Source of the DNA: Acidobacteriaceae bacterium | GTDB lineage: Bacteria > Acidobacteriota > Terriglobia > Terriglobales > Acidobacteriaceae | DNA: 64,000 nucleotides | Direction of reading: 5' to 3' | Assembly: GCA_003151335.1 (NCBI GenBank) | Contig: PLXE01000040.1 | Location: forward strand, 1-64,000 | Translations under genes and position numbers: made by a program | Shown: positions 49,719 through 60,878 of the stretch, piece after piece | How the letters are laid out: each line of letters starts with the position of its first letter | Numbering within the stretch: the first letter of the stretch is position 1 | The notes under the pieces: generated by a model | The model's input: only the letters and a program-made list of their open reading frames with translations | The model's database searches: none | Told to the model about the DNA's origin: nothing

Positions 49719-50774
49719 TTACGCTAACACCCTGATCAGCGGCTTTTGCTTGGCAGTGACTTCGCCGATTTCTACGGCGTCGATTGCTGAGTTTCGCAAG
49801 GCTGCAACCAATCGCTCAGCATCCTTTTCCGCGACCGAGATCAACAATCCTCCCGCCGTCTGCGGATCGAAGAGCAGTGTGCGAATCTCTTCCGGCACGC
49901 CGTCATCAAACTCGACACAACTCTCGGCGAAGCTGCGGTTCGCCTTCAGGCCGCCGGGAACGTATCCGGCGCGAACGCATTCCAGGGCGCCTTCCAGCAG
50001 GGGCACGCGCGAGGCATGAATTCGCAGGCTAACGCCCGAGCCGATGGCCATCTCGCGCGCATGACCGATCAGGCCGAAGCCGGTGACGTCGGTCATGCCA
50101 TGCACCTCGTAGCCGGGCGGTGAAGTCACTATCTCTGCCGCACGCTTGTTCAGGGTGGTCATGGAGCGCACCGCGTCGCGAACCCATGCGGCCTCGGCTT
50201 TGCCCCGTTTGATCGCCGTCGAGATCACGCCCGTGCCGATCGCCTTGGTAAAGACGAGCCGATCACCGGCCTTCGCGCCACTGTTGGCCAGCACCTGTTG
50301 CGGATGAATCGTTCCGGTCACGGCGTAGCCGAGCTTGATCTCTTCGTCGCGAATGCTGTGCCCGCCGATCACGGTACAGTGGGCCTCGATCATCTTCGAG
50401 AGGCCACCGGCCAGCATCTCTTCCAGCACTTTGAGGTCGCCGCTGTCGGGAAAGCAAACCAGTGTCAGCGCGCTGATCGGCCGCCCGCCCATGGCATACA
50501 CGTCGCTAAGCGCGTTGGTGGCCGCGATCTGTCCGAAGACGTAGGGATCGTCAACGATGGGGGTAAAAAAATCTACAGTTTGGACGAGCGCCAGCTCCGG
50601 CGTGAGTTGATACACGCCGGCGTCGTCGGCTGTTTCGAAGCCGATGAGCACGTTGGGATCGTGTTGCCGGGCTAATTTCCCAAGCACTGAGTCCAGCACC
50701 GCCGGACTTAGCTTGCTGGCTCAACCCGCGGCTTTCACCATCTCCGTGAGGCGCGTTGTCTTGACAGTGGACAT
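49719..50774 (-). CDS. selD: selenophosphate synthetase, selenoprotein form with in-frame UGA
   Basis: Makes selenophosphate from selenide and ATP for selenocysteine or selenouridine. The gene begins at ATG 50774 (MSTVKTTRLTEMVKAAG), then reads a UGA at 50723-50721, then ASKLSPAVLDSVLGKL. The UGA occupies the catalytic Cys/Sec position, three residues before the conserved lysine (U18, K21; compare GCGCK in E. coli). Downstream, GGHSIRDEEIKLGYAVTG and DVTGFGLIGHA are typical and the frame is undamaged to the stop (351 residues). The family conserved start would be lost if translation began at the in-frame GTG 50699 after the UGA. selA, selB and tRNA-Sec are not in the window. Confidence 0.9.
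50693..50719 (-). promoter_or_regulatory. candidate SECIS-like hairpin after the selD UGA
   Basis: Beginning one base after the UGA, CCAGCA (50719-50714) pairs with TGCTGG (50698-50693). Two further G-C pairs (50712-50711 with 50702-50701) close an eight-base loop TAAGTCCG that holds a G-U step, as bacterial SECIS loops do. The stem is short, and the distance from UGA to the loop (about 11-17 bases) is on the low side, so this is a suggestion only. Confidence 0.45.
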
Positions 50775-53823: not shown

Positions 53824-53977
53824 ACACCAATTGACTGGAAGAGACCACCCCGCTAGCTCCGTAGGCTGCGCTAAGTACGCCGGTCACCCTCTGCTGTGCG
53901 GACGATCACTGTGCCACAGGACGACTTTCATAGAACATAGAAGGTTGGATTCCTATCAAGAACTTGAGGAGAGGATT

Positions 53978-55342
53978 ATGCCGGAGAGCGTAGTGAGTGA
54001 GCCGATCGAAGTAGGTACAGAAGTACGTCAATCGGCGCCCAGGCAACTCCCAAAGAAGTCGACCAAAGCATTCAATTCATTTCAGATCGCACAAGAGCAG
54101 TTCGACAAGGTAGCCGAATACCTCGGCTTGGATCCGGCCACCCGGGACCTCCTGCGCTACCCGTTGCGGGAGTTCCATTTTGCCATCCCGGTGCGAATGG
54201 ACGACGGCGCGGTGAAAGTTTTCCGCGGTTTCCGCGTGCAACACAACGACGCGCGTGGGCCGGGGAAGGGTGGTATCCGTTTCCATCCGCAGGAGACCAT
54301 TGACACGGTCCGGGCGCTGTCGATGTGGATGACGTGGAAGTGCGCGGTGGTGGATATTCCGTTGGGCGGAGCAAAGGGCGGTGTCATTTGCGATCCTCAC
54401 AACCTCAGTTTGCGTGAGCAGGAGCAGATTTGCCGTGGCTGGGTGCGCCAGGTGGCAAAGAACGTCGGTCCGCTTACCGATGTGCCGGCGCCGGATGTCA
54501 TGACCAACGCCCAACACATGCTCTGGATACTCGACGAGTTCGAACAGATCCATGGTGGCCGTTATCCTGGCTTCATCACTGGCAAGCCCGTCGGCATGGG
54601 CGGGTCGCTCGGCCGGACCGAGGCGACGGGTTACGGCGTCGTGTTTACTCTGCGAGAAGCTCTTAAGGAATTGGGTATTCACCCGGAGAACACCACGGCC
54701 AGCGTCCAGGGATTTGGCAATGTGTCCCAGTACGCGATCGAACTTTACCAGCGGCTGGGAGGCCGGGTAATCGCCGTCTCCTGTTGGGACCAGGAGGACC
54801 AATGCGCTTACACGTATCGCAAGATGGACGGAGTCGATCTCAGTCAGCTTCTGTCGATCACCGACCGTTTCGGGGGGATCAACAAGCAAAAAGCGAAGGT
54901 CCTGGGCTACCAACTGCTGCCCGGCGAGGCGTGGCTTGAGCAAAATGTCGAGATCCTGATTCCGGCGGCGATGGAAAACCAGATTACCGGCGATAACGTT
55001 GGCAAAATAAGCCCCCGCGTGCGGATAATCGTAGAGGGTGCCAACGGTCCGACAACCCCGGAGGCCGATGTTCAGATCAAGGAACGCGGCATCCTGCTGA
55101 TTCCGGACTTCCTGGCCAATGCGGGTGGCGTGACTTGCAGCTATTTCGAGCAGGTCCAGAGCAACATGAACTACTTCTGGGAGAAGGACGAGGTGCTGGG
55201 AAAGCTCGACCTCAAGATGACCTCGGCTTACTTCGCGGTTTCGGAACTGGCGCATCGTGAGAAGCTGTCCATGCGCGATGCGGCCTACGCGATTGCCATC
55301 GGCCGAGTGGCCAAAGCCTGCCACGACCGCGGCTGGGTGTAA
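53978..55342 (+). CDS. gdhA: glutamate dehydrogenase (Glu/Leu/Phe/Val family)
   Basis: Oxidatively deaminates glutamate (or the reverse). A 454-residue protein with the dimerisation domain, VDIPLGGAKGGVICDP containing the catalytic lysine, and a Rossmann domain with VQGFGNVSQYAIELYQRLG. It ends AYAIAIGRVAKACHDRGW, typical of the family. ATG 53978 has GAGGAGAGG just upstream; the frame extends upstream to 53831 without family character. The next two genes follow within 75 bases on the same strand. Confidence 0.93.
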   Translation: MPESVVSEPIEVGTEVRQSAPRQLPKKSTKAFNSFQIAQEQFDKVAEYLGLDPATRDLLRYPLREFHFAIPVRMDDGAVKVFRGFRVQHNDARGPGKGGIRFHPQETIDTVRALSMWMTWKCAVVDIPLGGAKGGVICDPHNLSLREQEQICRGWVRQVAKNVGPLTDVPAPDVMTNAQHMLWILDEFEQIHGGRYPGFITGKPVGMGGSLGRTEATGYGVVFTLREALKELGIHPENTTASVQGFGNVSQYAIELYQRLGGRVIAVSCWDQEDQCAYTYRKMDGVDLSQLLSITDRFGGINKQKAKVLGYQLLPGEAWLEQNVEILIPAAMENQITGDNVGKISPRVRIIVEGANGPTTPEADVQIKERGILLIPDFLANAGGVTCSYFEQVQSNMNYFWEKDEVLGKLDLKMTSAYFAVSELAHREKLSMRDAAYAIAIGRVAKACHDRGWV

Positions 55343-55417: not shown

Positions 55418-57202
55418 ATGAGCGATCTTAAAACTGTGGTTGCGGAGCTTCCCGCGTTCGACCGGCATTTCTGGGACGGCACCTTTCGCTTCACGCGGAT
55501 CGGAACGGGAGCCTTGGGAGGGAAAGCCAGCGGACTGGCCTTCGCCAAGGACCTGCTGGCTGAAACTATTGACGCCTTCGCTTTCCCGGACATTGACGTC
55601 AATATTCCCACCATGGCCGTCATCGCGACGGACTGCTTCGACGAATTCATCGCGCGGAACCGCCTCGGGGAATTGCGCGTTGACGGGCTGCCGGACGACC
55701 ACATCGCACATGCCTTTCAACAGGCCGATCTTCCTGTAGAGTTATTGGGTGATCTCCGCGCCTTGATCGAGCAAGTCAAGACTCCTTTGGCAATCCGATC
55801 GTCCAGCCTGCTGGAAGATGCCCTGAATCGGCCGTTCGCTGGCGTTTACGGGACCAAGATGATCCCGAACAACCAGTTTGATTCTGACACCCGTTTCCGG
55901 CGACTGACTGAAGCCATCAAGTTTGTTTACGCTTCCACCTACTTCCGGGAAGCACGAGACTACATCAAGACAACCGGTCGCGATCCAAGCGAAGAGAAGA
56001 TGGCCGTAATCATCCAGGAAGTGGTCGGCAGGCGGCATGGCGATCGCTTCTATCCCGATTTGTCGGGGGTGGCGCGCTCCTACAACTTTTATCCGACAGG
56101 GCCAGCTCTTCCTGAGGAAGGTGTGGCCAGCCTGGCACTAGGTCTTGGTAAGACAATTGTTGACGGCGGAATGTCCTGGACATTCTCGCCGGCTTATCCC
56201 AAAAAACCGCCACCGTTTGGCTCGGTGCAGGAAATGCTTCGCGGCACGCAGACCGAGTTCTGGGCGGTCAACATGGGCAAGCCGCCCGCGTACGATCCCG
56301 TCAGCGAGACTGAGTACCTGGTGACAGCGAGCTTGAAGGAGGCCGAGGCTGACGACGCGCTCCGCTTCCTGGCTTCGACCTTTGACCCGGCGCGCGATCG
56401 CGTAGTCCCCGGCTTGGGCGCGCATGGTCCCCGCATCCTCGACTTCGCTCCCCTGTTAGTGTTAGAGCAGTTCCCGATCAACCATCTGATCAAAGCGCTG
56501 CTCGCCACGGCCGAGCACGGACTCGGCGCCAACGTCGAGATTGAATTCGCAGTGACCATCCAGGAAAGAGATGAACCAACCCGGGCGCGACTGGGATTTC
56601 TGCAGGTCCGTCCCATGGTCGTATCAGAGCAGATCGTGAACGTTAGCGCCGAGGACCTCTCCGATCCGAATGCGATCCTGGCGTCCGACGCGGTGATGGG
56701 CAACGGTATTGCCGAGGATATTCAGGACATCGTCTTCGTCCGGCCGGAACACTTCTCGCCCATGCAAACACCCGTGATCGCGCAGCAATTGGACCTGATC
56801 AATCAGCAGCTCTCGGAACAACACCGGCCATTCCTGCTGATTGGTTTTGGCCGCTGGGGCAGCTCTCATCCCTCACTGGGCATTCCAGTGGTCTGGAGTC
56901 AGATATCAGGAGCACGGGCAATCGTTGAAGCTACGCTGCCAGAGATGAACGTGGAGCTCAGTCAAGGTTCGCATTTCTTTCATAATTTATCGAGCTTTCG
57001 CACTAGCTACTTCATGGTGCGCCATGACGGAGGCTTTGCCATCGATTGGGAGTGGTTGAACCGCCAGCCGATCGTGCAAGAAACTGAATTTGTTCGCCAC
57101 GTGCGCCCTACCGGTACACTGACAGTTCGTGTCGATGGCCGCTCCAGGCGCGGGGTTGTGCTGTCAGTCGGGCGAATGCAAGCGGACGAGAAGGAGACAT
57201 GA
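55418..57202 (+). CDS. PEP synthase-like protein: PPDK_N ATP-grasp domain with extra C-terminal module
   Basis: A 594-residue protein with the ATP/pyruvate-binding domain of PEP synthase and PPDK: GALGGKASGLAFAKDL (about 30-46) and LAIRSSSLLEDALNRPFAGV (about 122-140). MAVIIQEVVGRR follows. It has no phosphohistidine swivel domain (no TSCH-like motif) and no PEP/pyruvate barrel. The C-terminal portion carries LIGFGRWGSSHPSLGIPVVW and GSHFFHNLSSF, a module also present in the next gene. GGAGG precedes ATG 55418. The last bases overlap the next gene (ATGA). Catalytic role unknown. Confidence 0.85.
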   Translation: MSDLKTVVAELPAFDRHFWDGTFRFTRIGTGALGGKASGLAFAKDLLAETIDAFAFPDIDVNIPTMAVIATDCFDEFIARNRLGELRVDGLPDDHIAHAFQQADLPVELLGDLRALIEQVKTPLAIRSSSLLEDALNRPFAGVYGTKMIPNNQFDSDTRFRRLTEAIKFVYASTYFREARDYIKTTGRDPSEEKMAVIIQEVVGRRHGDRFYPDLSGVARSYNFYPTGPALPEEGVASLALGLGKTIVDGGMSWTFSPAYPKKPPPFGSVQEMLRGTQTEFWAVNMGKPPAYDPVSETEYLVTASLKEAEADDALRFLASTFDPARDRVVPGLGAHGPRILDFAPLLVLEQFPINHLIKALLATAEHGLGANVEIEFAVTIQERDEPTRARLGFLQVRPMVVSEQIVNVSAEDLSDPNAILASDAVMGNGIAEDIQDIVFVRPEHFSPMQTPVIAQQLDLINQQLSEQHRPFLLIGFGRWGSSHPSLGIPVVWSQISGARAIVEATLPEMNVELSQGSHFFHNLSSFRTSYFMVRHDGGFAIDWEWLNRQPIVQETEFVRHVRPTGTLTVRVDGRSRRGVVLSVGRMQADEKET

Positions 57203-60200
57203 TCCGAGACGAATCCCAAGTTGGGGTAATCCTTCGCGAGTTGCAGGAGCGCGCCAAGGAATTGAACTGTCTCTACAAAGTGGATGAGCTCCTCAATCGG
57301 CCGGACCTCTCACTGGAAGAAATCTTCCGCGGGATGATCGATGTTCTACCCCCAGGTTGGCAGTACCCGCACGACTGCCAGGCGCGAATCATCTTCGAAG
57401 ATCAAGTAATCCAACCGCCGAATTTTGTCCCCACGCCCTGGGTGCAGGGGGCGAACATCGTCGTCCAAGGCGAGACCGTCGGCAGCGTGGAAGTTTCGTA
57501 CCGGGCGCAGATGCCCAAGTCGGACGAGGGTCCCTTTCTCAAGGAGGAGCGAAAGCTGATCGAAACCATCGCCGAGCGCACTGCCAACCACATCATGCAA
57601 CGGCGATTGAAAACAGCTTTTGAGGGACTGTCCGCGGCAGCCGGCGGTCTGGCGAGCGATAAAGGTGAGTGGCGGGTTGTCCTTGAGTTCCTGCGCGGCA
57701 CCGACCCGGTCCTGCTGCGGCGAATTTCGCGCAAACTGATCAATCACTTGAGCTGGGGTGGCGTGCAGGAGGCCAAGGAACTGTTGCAGCGTGGCGGCGT
57801 TGCGACAGCGGCCGACGCAGCGGCTGCCGGCGACGAAAATCGGCCTCTGCGCCGCGACGTTGCGGCCGGGTTTGTTGACCTCACTACGGAAGCGTTTCGC
57901 ATCGCCAGTCAGCACCTGAGTGAAGCCGAGATCCTGAGCTGTGTCACGACCTGGATCAAGGAGGAGAAGTCCAGCTTCCTGGTGCGGACCTTGGAGAACA
58001 TGGCCACATCGCTGGGAGTAGTCATAGAAGCGATCGAACGCTACCAGCACGCAGCGATCGAAGAGAGCGAGCTTTCGCTTTCCACGCAAAAGGGCCTGCG
58101 GGTGTCGCTGATCCGCCGGTTTTTCTCCGAGAACCTGGAGTTCATCAACATCGCCAAGAACTTCATCGAAGTCAAGGACTTTTACGATCTGCTGGGAAGG
58201 ATCATCTTCCCGCTTGGCTGTCACGGGAAGCTTGGAGGCAAAAGCGCCGGGCTGTTCCTGGCCAAGAAGATCATCGAGAAAGCTCTAGAGGCCAGCGGGG
58301 AGCTGCGTCAGGTGAAGGTGCCCCGCACCTGGTACATCACCTCGGACTGGATTCTCAATTTCGTCCACCACAATGAGTTGGAGGATGTACTGAATTGGAA
58401 GTACATGGAGATTGACCAGGTGCGGCAGGAATACCCGCACCTCGTCTCACTGTTCAAGAGTTCGTCATTTCCCTCAGAACTAGCCAAGGGACTTGCGCTG
58501 GCCCTCGATGAGCTGGGCGAACGCCCTTTGATTGTTCGCAGCTCGAGTCTTCTGGAAGACCGCGCCGGATCGGCGTTCTCCGGCAAATACAAGAGCCTCT
58601 TTCTGGGCAACCAGGGAAGCAAGGAAGAGCGGCTGGCGGCGCTGATGGACGCCGTCGCCGAAGTGTACGCCTCGATCTTTGGACCCGATCCCACGGAGTA
58701 CCGGGCGGAGCGAGGTCTTTTGGATGTTCATGAAGAGATGGGCCTCATGATCCAGGAGGTCGTGGGCCGGAAGGTCGGCAAGTACTTTCTTCCGGCTTGC
58801 TCCGGCGTTGCCTTTAGTAACAACGAGTTCCGTTGGTCTGCCCGAATTAGTCGCGGAGACGGGTTAGTGCGCCTGGTGCCGGGATTGGGAACCCGCGCGG
58901 TTGACCGCGTAGCCGACGACTATCCGGTGCTGATCGCGCCGGGACAACCCAACCTCCGAGTCAACGTTACGGTGGAAGAGGTGCTCAAGTACTCGCCTAA
59001 GCGCGTCGACGTGATCAATCTGGAGAGCAACGCGTTTGAAACGGTGGACTCGGTAGAACTGCTTCGCTACTGCGGCGGCAGGTATCCGCAGATTCGCCAT
59101 TTTGTATCGGTGATCGAGCACGATCGCATTGAGCAGCTAGTCGGGCCAGTCCCGGACTTTAGCACACGCGACGTGGTCTTCAGCTTCGAAGGTCTGATCC
59201 GGAAGACACCGTTCGTGGCGCGGATTCGCGAGTTGCTGACTCTTCTGCAATCCAAACTGGGCACGCCGGTGGACATCGAGTTTGCCTACGACGGGGAGGA
59301 TTTTTACCTCCTGCAGTGCCGGCCCCAAAGCTACAGCGGTGATGCGGTCCCGGTTGCGATACCACAGAATCTGCCGGCGGACAAAGTGATCTTCTCGGCT
59401 AACCGCTTCGTCTCCAATGGCAAGGTACCGGAGATCACGCACATTGTTTATGTGGACCTGGAGGGCTATAGCCAGCTTTCCGACCAGACCACAATGCGCG
59501 ATATAGGACGCGCAGTAGGGCGATTGAACAAGTTGCTGCCCAAGCGGCAGTTTATCTTGATCGGTCCCGGACGCTGGGGGAGCCGCGGGGACATCAAACT
59601 CGGCGTTCCGGTCACGTACTCCGACATCAACAACACGGCGATGCTAATCGAAGTCGCGCGGCAACGAGGAAACTATCTGCCGGAGCTTTCCTTCGGCACC
59701 CATTTCTTTCAGGATTTGGTGGAAGCTTCGATACGCTACCTCCCTCTCTATCCGGACGATCCGCAGACCGTATTCAAGGAAGAGTTTCTGCGACGCTCCC
59801 ACAGCGTGCTGGAGGAGCTTCTTCCCGAATTCGCGCATCTGTCGGATACCCTTCGTGTTATCGATATGGCGAAAGAGACGGGAGGCCTGATTTTGCAAGT
59901 GCTCATGAATGCAGAATTGGACCAGGCCATAGCATTTCTCTCACCTCCACGGCAGCGAGACGGACAGCCCGAATCGGACGTCGAGGTGGTTGATCGCACC
60001 GGCGAAGAACACTGGCGCTGGCGCTTCCGGATGGCGCAGAGGATCGCGGCACAACTCGATCCCCAGATGTTTGGCGTCAAGGCGTTTTACCTGATTGGCA
60101 GCACGAAAAATGCAACCGCCGGCCCGGCAAGCGATATAGATTTGCTACTTCATTTCCAGGGCACCAAAGAGCAGAGGAAGGAATTGATGCTCTGGCTGGA

Positions 60201-60375
60201 GGGCTGGAGTCGTTGTCTCGGTGAAATCAACTTTCTGCGAACTGGCTATCGGACGGAAGGCCTGCTCGATGTCCACGTAATCAGTGATGTGGACATCGCA
60301 GAGCGCTCGACCTATGCCGTCAAGATTGACGCGATCACAGATTCCGCACGGAAGCTGCCGATGAAGGAAGCATAG
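57199..60375 (+). CDS. GAF-PPDK_N-nucleotidyltransferase fusion protein
   Basis: A 1058-residue protein. It starts with a GAF-like domain (about 20-150: LYKVDELLNRPDLSLEEIF, PFLKEERKLIETIAERTANH). A helical linker leads to a PPDK_N ATP-grasp domain with GGKSAGLFLAKKI (about 345) and LIVRSSSLLEDRAGSAFSG (about 443). The shared module LIGPGRWGSRGDIKLGVPV / FGTHFFQDL follows. A nucleotidyltransferase-type C-terminus has YLIGSTKNATAGPASDIDLL (about 960), with the GSxxx and DxD pair. No phosphohistidine or PEP domain. It overlaps the upstream PPDK_N gene by four bases. The three activities suggest a signalling or modifying enzyme, but the substrate is unknown. Confidence 0.85.
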   Translation: MIRDESQVGVILRELQERAKELNCLYKVDELLNRPDLSLEEIFRGMIDVLPPGWQYPHDCQARIIFEDQVIQPPNFVPTPWVQGANIVVQGETVGSVEVSYRAQMPKSDEGPFLKEERKLIETIAERTANHIMQRRLKTAFEGLSAAAGGLASDKGEWRVVLEFLRGTDPVLLRRISRKLINHLSWGGVQEAKELLQRGGVATAADAAAAGDENRPLRRDVAAGFVDLTTEAFRIASQHLSEAEILSCVTTWIKEEKSSFLVRTLENMATSLGVVIEAIERYQHAAIEESELSLSTQKGLRVSLIRRFFSENLEFINIAKNFIEVKDFYDLLGRIIFPLGCHGKLGGKSAGLFLAKKIIEKALEASGELRQVKVPRTWYITSDWILNFVHHNELEDVLNWKYMEIDQVRQEYPHLVSLFKSSSFPSELAKGLALALDELGERPLIVRSSSLLEDRAGSAFSGKYKSLFLGNQGSKEERLAALMDAVAEVYASIFGPDPTEYRAERGLLDVHEEMGLMIQEVVGRKVGKYFLPACSGVAFSNNEFRWSARISRGDGLVRLVPGLGTRAVDRVADDYPVLIAPGQPNLRVNVTVEEVLKYSPKRVDVINLESNAFETVDSVELLRYCGGRYPQIRHFVSVIEHDRIEQLVGPVPDFSTRDVVFSFEGLIRKTPFVARIRELLTLLQSKLGTPVDIEFAYDGEDFYLLQCRPQSYSGDAVPVAIPQNLPADKVIFSANRFVSNGKVPEITHIVYVDLEGYSQLSDQTTMRDIGRAVGRLNKLLPKRQFILIGPGRWGSRGDIKLGVPVTYSDINNTAMLIEVARQRGNYLPELSFGTHFFQDLVEASIRYLPLYPDDPQTVFKEEFLRRSHSVLEELLPEFAHLSDTLRVIDMAKETGGLILQVLMNAELDQAIAFLSPPRQRDGQPESDVEVVDRTGEEHWRWRFRMAQRIAAQLDPQMFGVKAFYLIGSTKNATAGPASDIDLLLHFQGTKEQRKELMLWLEGWSRCLGEINFLRTGYRTEGLLDVHVISDVDIAERSTYAVKIDAITDSARKLPMKEA

Positions 60376-60878
60376 TTCGTGCTAAAGCAACTGGCGCGAA
60401 GCATCGTCAGGCGATTCCGCATCGAATCGCACGAGGGCTAATTCTGGCCCGTCTTGCGCGCCATTGATGCACACGGTGCGGCCCAGCCTGGTTTTCCATT
60501 GGTCGGTCAAGCGAGCAGCTTCATGTATATGACCGTGCAATGTGAGCAGTGGATAAACGACGGCATGGCGCCGTAAACAGCGAGCCGAACCGAATCCTAG
60601 GCAATCTGCCCGCGCGGGAAGCCTCGCACGGCGCGACCTTGCCAACGCGCTCCACCCGGTACCGGTCCGAATTCTTCGCAGGCATGGGTGAGGGCAATGC
60701 CGGAGGGGGGCGGGTTCGCCAACCACGTCCGCCACGCCCGAGTTGATCGCAAAGACAATGTCAAAACTGCAATCTCAGCATTTTGTGGAACCAATTCAAT
60801 GCTAAAGTTCTCCACTACCACGCCGGGGTGAATCTTCGTCTTCAGCTCGAAGAAATCTTTGCATCAAGGAGATGGAAA
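60376..60878. other. 503-base intergenic region with a metallophosphoesterase remnant
   Basis: The minus strand keeps the end of a metallophosphoesterase (listed separately). The rest has no intact frame, and a promoter for the following repeat protein may lie at about 60740-60860. I see no other structure. Confidence 0.5.
60382..60735 (-). pseudogene. frameshifted metallophosphoesterase remnant
   Basis: The C-terminal part reads LLTLHGHIHEAARLTDQW and then RTVCINGAQDGPELALVRFD, the metal-binding histidine motif (GHxH) and end of calcineurin-like phosphoesterases. About 60 bases upstream of it the homologous frame switches (GSLAVYGAMP in another frame), and the N-terminal metal-binding motifs (DxH, GD, GNHE) are absent. 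It is therefore not functional. Confidence 0.65.

Follow-up and report, generated by a model that had tools for sequence, protein, structure and literature searches.

Phosphoenolpyruvate (PEP) synthase and pyruvate phosphate dikinase (PpsA and PpdK; PF01326-PF00391-PF02896) join a PPDK_N ATP-grasp domain to a phosphohistidine swivel domain and a PEP/pyruvate domain. ATP-grasp domains of the PPDK_N type are also employed outside PEP synthesis, by HpeHI, CreHI, the phenylphosphate synthase PpsAB and the rifampin phosphotransferase RPH, which act on phenols or rifampin and have acceptor-binding and recognisable swivel domains of their own; HpeHI also sets a precedent for a stand-alone PPDK_N subunit that phosphorylates through a partner (PMC12167813). 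Sensory control of a phosphohistidine-type enzyme is exemplified by EI-Ntr (PtsP), in which glutamine binding to a GAF domain blocks autophosphorylation (PMC4848567). The subject of this analysis is a locus in a 64,000-nucleotide stretch of DNA from an Acidobacteriaceae bacterium (contig PLXE01000040.1, positions 1 to 64,000; the window), at which two PPDK_N proteins, designated class B and class C, are encoded directly behind glutamate dehydrogenase (gdh). The open-access literature that was searched contained no description of PPDK_N-only proteins tied to glutamate dehydrogenase, and by that measure the gdh-linked system appears to be undescribed. It is quite possible, if just short of probable, that gdh, class B and class C, often accompanied by a phosphoesterase, constitute one module that tunes glutamate dehydrogenase according to the energy state, and probably the nitrogen state, of the cell.

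The three genes lie close together on the + strand. The gdh gene (53978..55342; PF00208/PF02812) is of the subtype that is partnered with classes B and C, here called GDH1; its start was set at the ATG preceding PESVV, in an open reading frame that opens at 53831, and its product's top NCBIfam model is GdhA_Arch, with a score of 457 bits against a model cut-off of 750. Class B (594 amino acids, 55418..57202) starts 75 bases past the gdh stop codon, and its own stop shares an ATGA overlap with the start of class C (1058 amino acids, 57199..60375), so that translational coupling of the two is plausible. Pfam, AlphaFold2 (AF2) models and structural alignment define the domains: class B is a PPDK_N ATP-grasp (residues ~20-402) followed by a C-terminal GRWGS/SHFF domain (residues ~410-585), while class C (fold searches were added for this protein) runs from a GAF domain (residues ~8-145; 57220..57633, +) through a helical linker to a PPDK_N ATP-grasp (residues 344-723; 58228..59367, +), a GRWGS/THFF domain (residues ~724-916; 59368..59946, +) and a nucleotidyltransferase (residues ~936-1058; 60004..60372, +). 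Most of this anatomy had been called in a first-pass annotation made from the sequence, and it holds: two + strand reading frames with these ends close behind a gdh gene (a Pfam Glu/Leu/Phe/Val dehydrogenase match), twin PPDK_N proteins (Pfam E 5.9e-33 for class B; PF01326 E 1.3e-56 for class C) with their ATP-binding motifs (GGKASGL/RSSSLLED and GGKSAGL/RSSSLLED), and the addition of a GAF-like sensor and a nucleotidyltransferase to the second protein.

The association with glutamate dehydrogenase extends far beyond this contig, and the functional tie to gdh that the first-pass annotation proposed turns out to be stronger than it foresaw. The best 80 matches to class C (which are not a random sample) come, judging by their record titles, from at least 15 phyla, and 70 of these loci have gdh immediately upstream in the same orientation. 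The phyla include Acidobacteriota, Bacteroidota/Ignavibacteria, Calditrichota, Planctomycetota, Myxococcota and Spirochaetes as well as Gemmatimonadota, Bacillota, Chloroflexota, Neomarinimicrobiota and Cloacimonetes. Of the ten loci without an adjacent gdh, seven run into a contig end and the other three show 1.5-2 kb of gdh-free upstream DNA. Class B is present at 47/80 of these loci, and the third class described below, class A, lies within the flanks of 9/80. Whole genomes provided an independent test. Among 61 close relatives, GDH1 (83-100% identity) is found in all 7 genomes that encode B and C and in no others, and the gdh homologs of the remaining relatives are just ~27-49% identical. 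Across 297 Acidobacteriota genomes, with class C counted at ≥44% identity, this gdh subtype and class C occur together in 53, class C only in 2, gdh only in 3 and neither in 239 (Fisher p ~1e-52, uncorrected for kinship); 13 further Acidobacteriota genomes have more divergent class C-like proteins (<44% identity) without this gdh. Certain residues of the GDH1 subtype are invariant (R161, E193, W323, Q396 and W457, for example, in 96/96).

A like-built protein accompanies a second family of glutamate dehydrogenase. Class A consists of two receiver domains, a PPDK_N ATP-grasp and a GRWGS domain; its first receiver is without the phospho-acceptor Asp and its second retains the Asp in 35/35 sequences. 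Its neighbour is an NADP-type gdh (PRK09414, 758 bits) that is different from GDH1. In the genome analysed here, on another contig, this gdh is 2.1 kb from class A, with a single opposite-strand FRG-domain gene between them (L040:3790-10357); in Parabacteroides distasonis (Bacteroidota; L094:6423-15715), class A is flanked by gdh, and a second gdh follows ~3.5 kb further on. That two gdh families each have a like-built partner implicates glutamate dehydrogenase itself and not a chance neighbour. Some further features of class A and its surroundings were noted. The L040 protein also matches DUF5752; the interval between the P. distasonis gdh genes carries annotations for a nucleotidyltransferase, the RNase adapter RapZ and an exo/endonuclease/phosphatase; and at L084:4676-6604 a GAF-containing histidine kinase, a possible input to class A receiver domains, adjoins a class B/C/gdh locus. 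Bacteroides thetaiotaomicron BT1971 was considered as a class A gene and discarded: it is a catalase.

In all three classes the ATP-grasp is followed by a C-terminal domain marked by the motifs GRWGS...LG.PV and S.G.HFF; conservation was counted over 35 sequences of class A, 60 of class B and 95 of class C. Five ATP-site residues (Lys, Arg, Glu, Gln and Arg), at positions that we take to correspond to those of PPDK, are invariant throughout; where PPDK has Asp321, the residue is D or E apart from a single A in the class A set. In class C, K348, R447, D692, E694, Q706 and R708 are unchanged in 95/95. Classes B and C thus possess a PPDK_N ATP-grasp with the catalytic residues of PEP synthase and PPDK, and HpeI (9goj) and RPH (5hv1) rank among the top fold matches of their models. 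Because the catalytic residues are conserved, ATP chemistry by both proteins is likely. These data bear directly on the main rival to a modifying system, namely that B and C are non-covalent subunits of the dehydrogenase, which they would adjust allosterically in response to ATP/ADP/AMP and a ligand of the GAF domain, with no phosphotransfer product being formed. APRTh of Thermus is an example of such a subunit (doi 10.1128/JB.00710-18). An equally strict linkage to gdh would be expected of such subunits. However, retention of six ATP-site residues and a His (see below) in 155 B/C sequences suggests catalysis over mere binding, and the metal residues of the nucleotidyltransferase are largely retained; we judge the non-covalent reading to be somewhat unlikely.

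What an ATP-grasp of this family would do with its phosphoryl group depends on the domains that follow it. The PEP domain (PF02896) is found by Pfam in neither class B nor class C, as the first-pass annotation had it. Could an ordinary PEP synthase or PPDK be divided among several genes? PPDK_N is there, and divided relatives are known, HpeI/HpeH being the example (PMC12167813). The genome inventory largely refutes the proposal: in this 4.65 Mb, 100% complete genome there are four PPDK_N proteins (class B, class C, class A and a complete PPDK), and the single PF00391 match and the single PF02896 match genome-wide both fall inside that same ordinary, separate PPDK, so that a PEP domain is available in trans only within it. 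A complementing separate phosphohistidine/PEP protein, which the first-pass annotation had singled out as the finding that would speak for ordinary PEP synthase activity, is therefore not present in the genome outside the ordinary PPDK. A split PEP synthase has no partner protein in the genome and is rejected as barely credible. Nor does the genome have a separate PF00391 protein to serve as partner in the manner of RPH or HpeHI; an acceptor domain was not directly searched for.

The first-pass annotation also held that the phosphohistidine swivel domain is absent, and in this it is probably wrong. The second domains of class B (residues ~411-585 by the VIA alignment ranges; 56648..57172, +) and class C are homologous to one another (hhalign probability 99.7%), and the His of their second motif, S.G.HFF, is invariant in 190/190 sequences: 35 of class A, 60 of class B (His519, codon 56972-56974) and 95 of class C (His835, codon 59701-59703). 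The AF2 model of class B (mean predicted local distance difference test score, pLDDT, 87.5) aligns by VIA over residues 6-585 with residues 13-467 of Neisseria PEP synthase (2ols; 354 aligned, Z 25.9) and over residues 6-584 with residues 10-510 of PPDK (1dik; 350 aligned, Z 18.7), whereas matches confined to the ATP domain align just 229-276 residues. The extra aligned residues coincide with the position of the swivel domain in PPDK and PEP synthase, the limits of which we take from general knowledge of these enzymes; the alignments extend through the swivel of 2ols, 1dik, 1kbl and 2x0s. The class C model (pLDDT 75) behaves in the same way, its residues 305..916 aligning with 2ols. In the class B model, the order of secondary structure (strand-strand-helix-strand-helix-strand, a helix from S518-H519, then further strands) fits a swivel, with the invariant His placed at the start of a helix, as is the phospho-His of PPDK.

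Several results weigh against this assignment, for which the support is structural only. PF00391 is found in 0/58 full-length members and in 0/43 isolated domains; hhalign comparison with the swivels of Acidobacteriota PPDK and PEP synthase, per class and pooled, gives probabilities of <1%; a domain-profile search of Protein Data Bank sequences yielded nothing but weak, unrelated matches. Pfam and NCBIfam supply no name for the domain, Pfam matches up to E 10 being weak and unrelated throughout. Model confidence also falls near the conserved His, to a pLDDT of ~67 in the vicinity of His519 and, for the most part, of 35-55 in that of His835. On balance, the structural alignment and the invariant His make a divergent phosphohistidine swivel the probable identity of the second domain of classes B and C. 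The resemblance to PEP synthase and PPDK would then comprise the ATP-grasp catalytic residues and a structurally aligned next domain; the differences are that B and C are without a PEP/pyruvate domain, have a second domain that PF00391 does not see, are linked to gdh and are fused to sensor and nucleotidyltransferase domains.

The GAF domain of class C is recognised by fold (VIA Z 12.2 to 3cit_A over 125 residues, rmsd (root-mean-square deviation) 2.5; also 3ci6) and only weakly by sequence (6/22 relatives, best E 0.0092). The nucleotidyltransferase is detected by Pfam (PF01909, E 7.6e-5), resembles the MNT antitoxin fold and has the GS ... DxD ... D motif: G967 in 88/95, S968 in 86/95, D979 in 87/95, D981 in 81/95 (with N in 6) and D1024 in 88/95. 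No nucleotidyltransferase could be aligned in the class C proteins of L091, L093, L169, L174 and L176, of which L169 ends at a contig edge; gdh is adjacent at these loci all the same. The sole other frequent adjacent neighbour at class C loci is a calcineurin-like metallophosphoesterase, which follows class C at 29/71 evaluable loci (convergently at 24, in the same orientation at 5) and is intact beside class C in many other phyla; with intact genes at these 29 only, it was rejected as an obligatory component. In the window a decayed remnant of its last 56 codons is convergent with class C (60385..60552, -; 76.8% by tblastn against the L037 protein, residues 238-293).

A nucleotidyltransferase and a phosphoesterase could be read as a synthesis/breakdown pair: the former would make a diffusible nucleotide (or modify another target), the latter would degrade it, and gdh would merely be co-regulated. 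PADLOC reports weak matches to the nucleotidyltransferase and phosphoesterase models of the candidate systems PDC-S09 and PDC-S10, but class B lies beside gdh without any nucleotidyltransferase, as do a few of the class C proteins, and each of two different gdh families has its partner. This reading is very improbable. Anti-phage defence was likewise set aside, PADLOC showing nothing beyond those weak matches.

An ATP-dependent signalling or modifying system is our leading inference, as it was that of the first-pass annotation, and the following scheme is proposed. PPDK_N would bind ATP and phosphorylate the invariant His (His519 in B, His835 in C) in a step that resembles how PEP synthase, RPH or HpeHI begin their reactions, in the first half-reaction. 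With the PEP acceptor domain missing, the phosphoryl group would have to be handed to another protein in trans, for which glutamate dehydrogenase is the likeliest candidate. In class C, the GAF domain would gate the reaction, a proposal that follows the precedent of glutamine control of EI-Ntr; the nucleotidyltransferase would provide a second output, and the phosphoesterase would reverse the modification. Of the inputs suggested by the first-pass annotation, nitrogen is plausible and redox is without support. Extended to its full breadth, the scheme becomes an ATP-driven phosphohistidine relay of wide distribution that is devoted to glutamate dehydrogenase: ATP-grasp proteins with GAF or receiver sensors would autophosphorylate on a divergent swivel and mark the dehydrogenase, a nucleotidyltransferase would write a second time and a metallophosphoesterase would erase; this we put forward tentatively, as a possibility. 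Against the scheme, operon linkage is no proof that the dehydrogenase is a substrate, and it is genomic linkage and co-occurrence that point to it as the target. Class B, moreover, is absent from 33/80 class C loci (some of them truncated), 5/95 class C proteins do without the nucleotidyltransferase and the phosphoesterase is missing from most class C loci, which makes these parts optional.

One could also suppose that B and C are metabolic enzymes, their ATP-grasp and swivel phosphorylating or ligating a small molecule that the dehydrogenase produces or consumes (glutamate, 2-oxoglutarate or ammonia). Relatives do phosphorylate small molecules (RPH and HpeHI/PpsAB; PMC12167813), and other ATP-grasp ligases appear lower down the class B fold list. 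However, no acceptor-binding domain of the RPH, HpeH or PPDK type turned up (no direct search was aimed at one), and the sensor and nucleotidyltransferase domains argue for a regulatory role, as do fusions to receivers and the presence of 2-3 paralogs per genome with differing sensors. A metabolic role is, on this evidence, improbable.

The regulatory reading finds partial parallels. EI-Ntr shares with class C, alone of the classes in this respect, a GAF sensor on an enzyme of the phosphohistidine type, but takes its phosphoryl group from PEP through a PEP-binding domain and donates it to NPr, whereas the class B/C ATP-grasp would use ATP; PF00391 and PF02896, the phosphohistidine and PEP domains of EI, are not found in class C, and no NPr-like gene recurs near class C loci. 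GlnE and GlnD place a nucleotidyltransferase domain in the setting of a nitrogen enzyme. No GlnE/GlnD domain appears in the Pfam results for B and C, and the class C nucleotidyltransferase is MNT-like in fold. Thermus GdhA/GdhB-APRTh likewise has a dedicated homolog of a nucleotide-binding enzyme as the partner of glutamate dehydrogenase; APRTh belongs to an unrelated family and is reported to be catalytically inactive, whereas B and C retain their catalytic residues (doi 10.1128/JB.00710-18).

If the proposed relay exists, it would serve glutamate dehydrogenase, which stands at the junction of carbon and nitrogen metabolism, as GlnE and GlnD serve glutamine synthetase. A partner that tracks one gdh subtype in at least 15 phyla, with a version for the NADP-type enzyme in Acidobacteriota and Bacteroidota, would amount to a major unrecognised layer of control; it offers a target that can be tested directly in culturable bacteria, Parabacteroides and Oligosphaera among them. 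Genes adjacent to gdh that are labelled 'PEP synthase' or 'PEP/pyruvate-binding' are probably misannotated.

Elsewhere in the window, selD (selenide, water dikinase; 49719-50735, -) has an in-frame TGA at the active-site position (AAGUASKLS), after which the mechanically called open reading frame begins; its product is therefore probably a selenocysteine-containing SelD.
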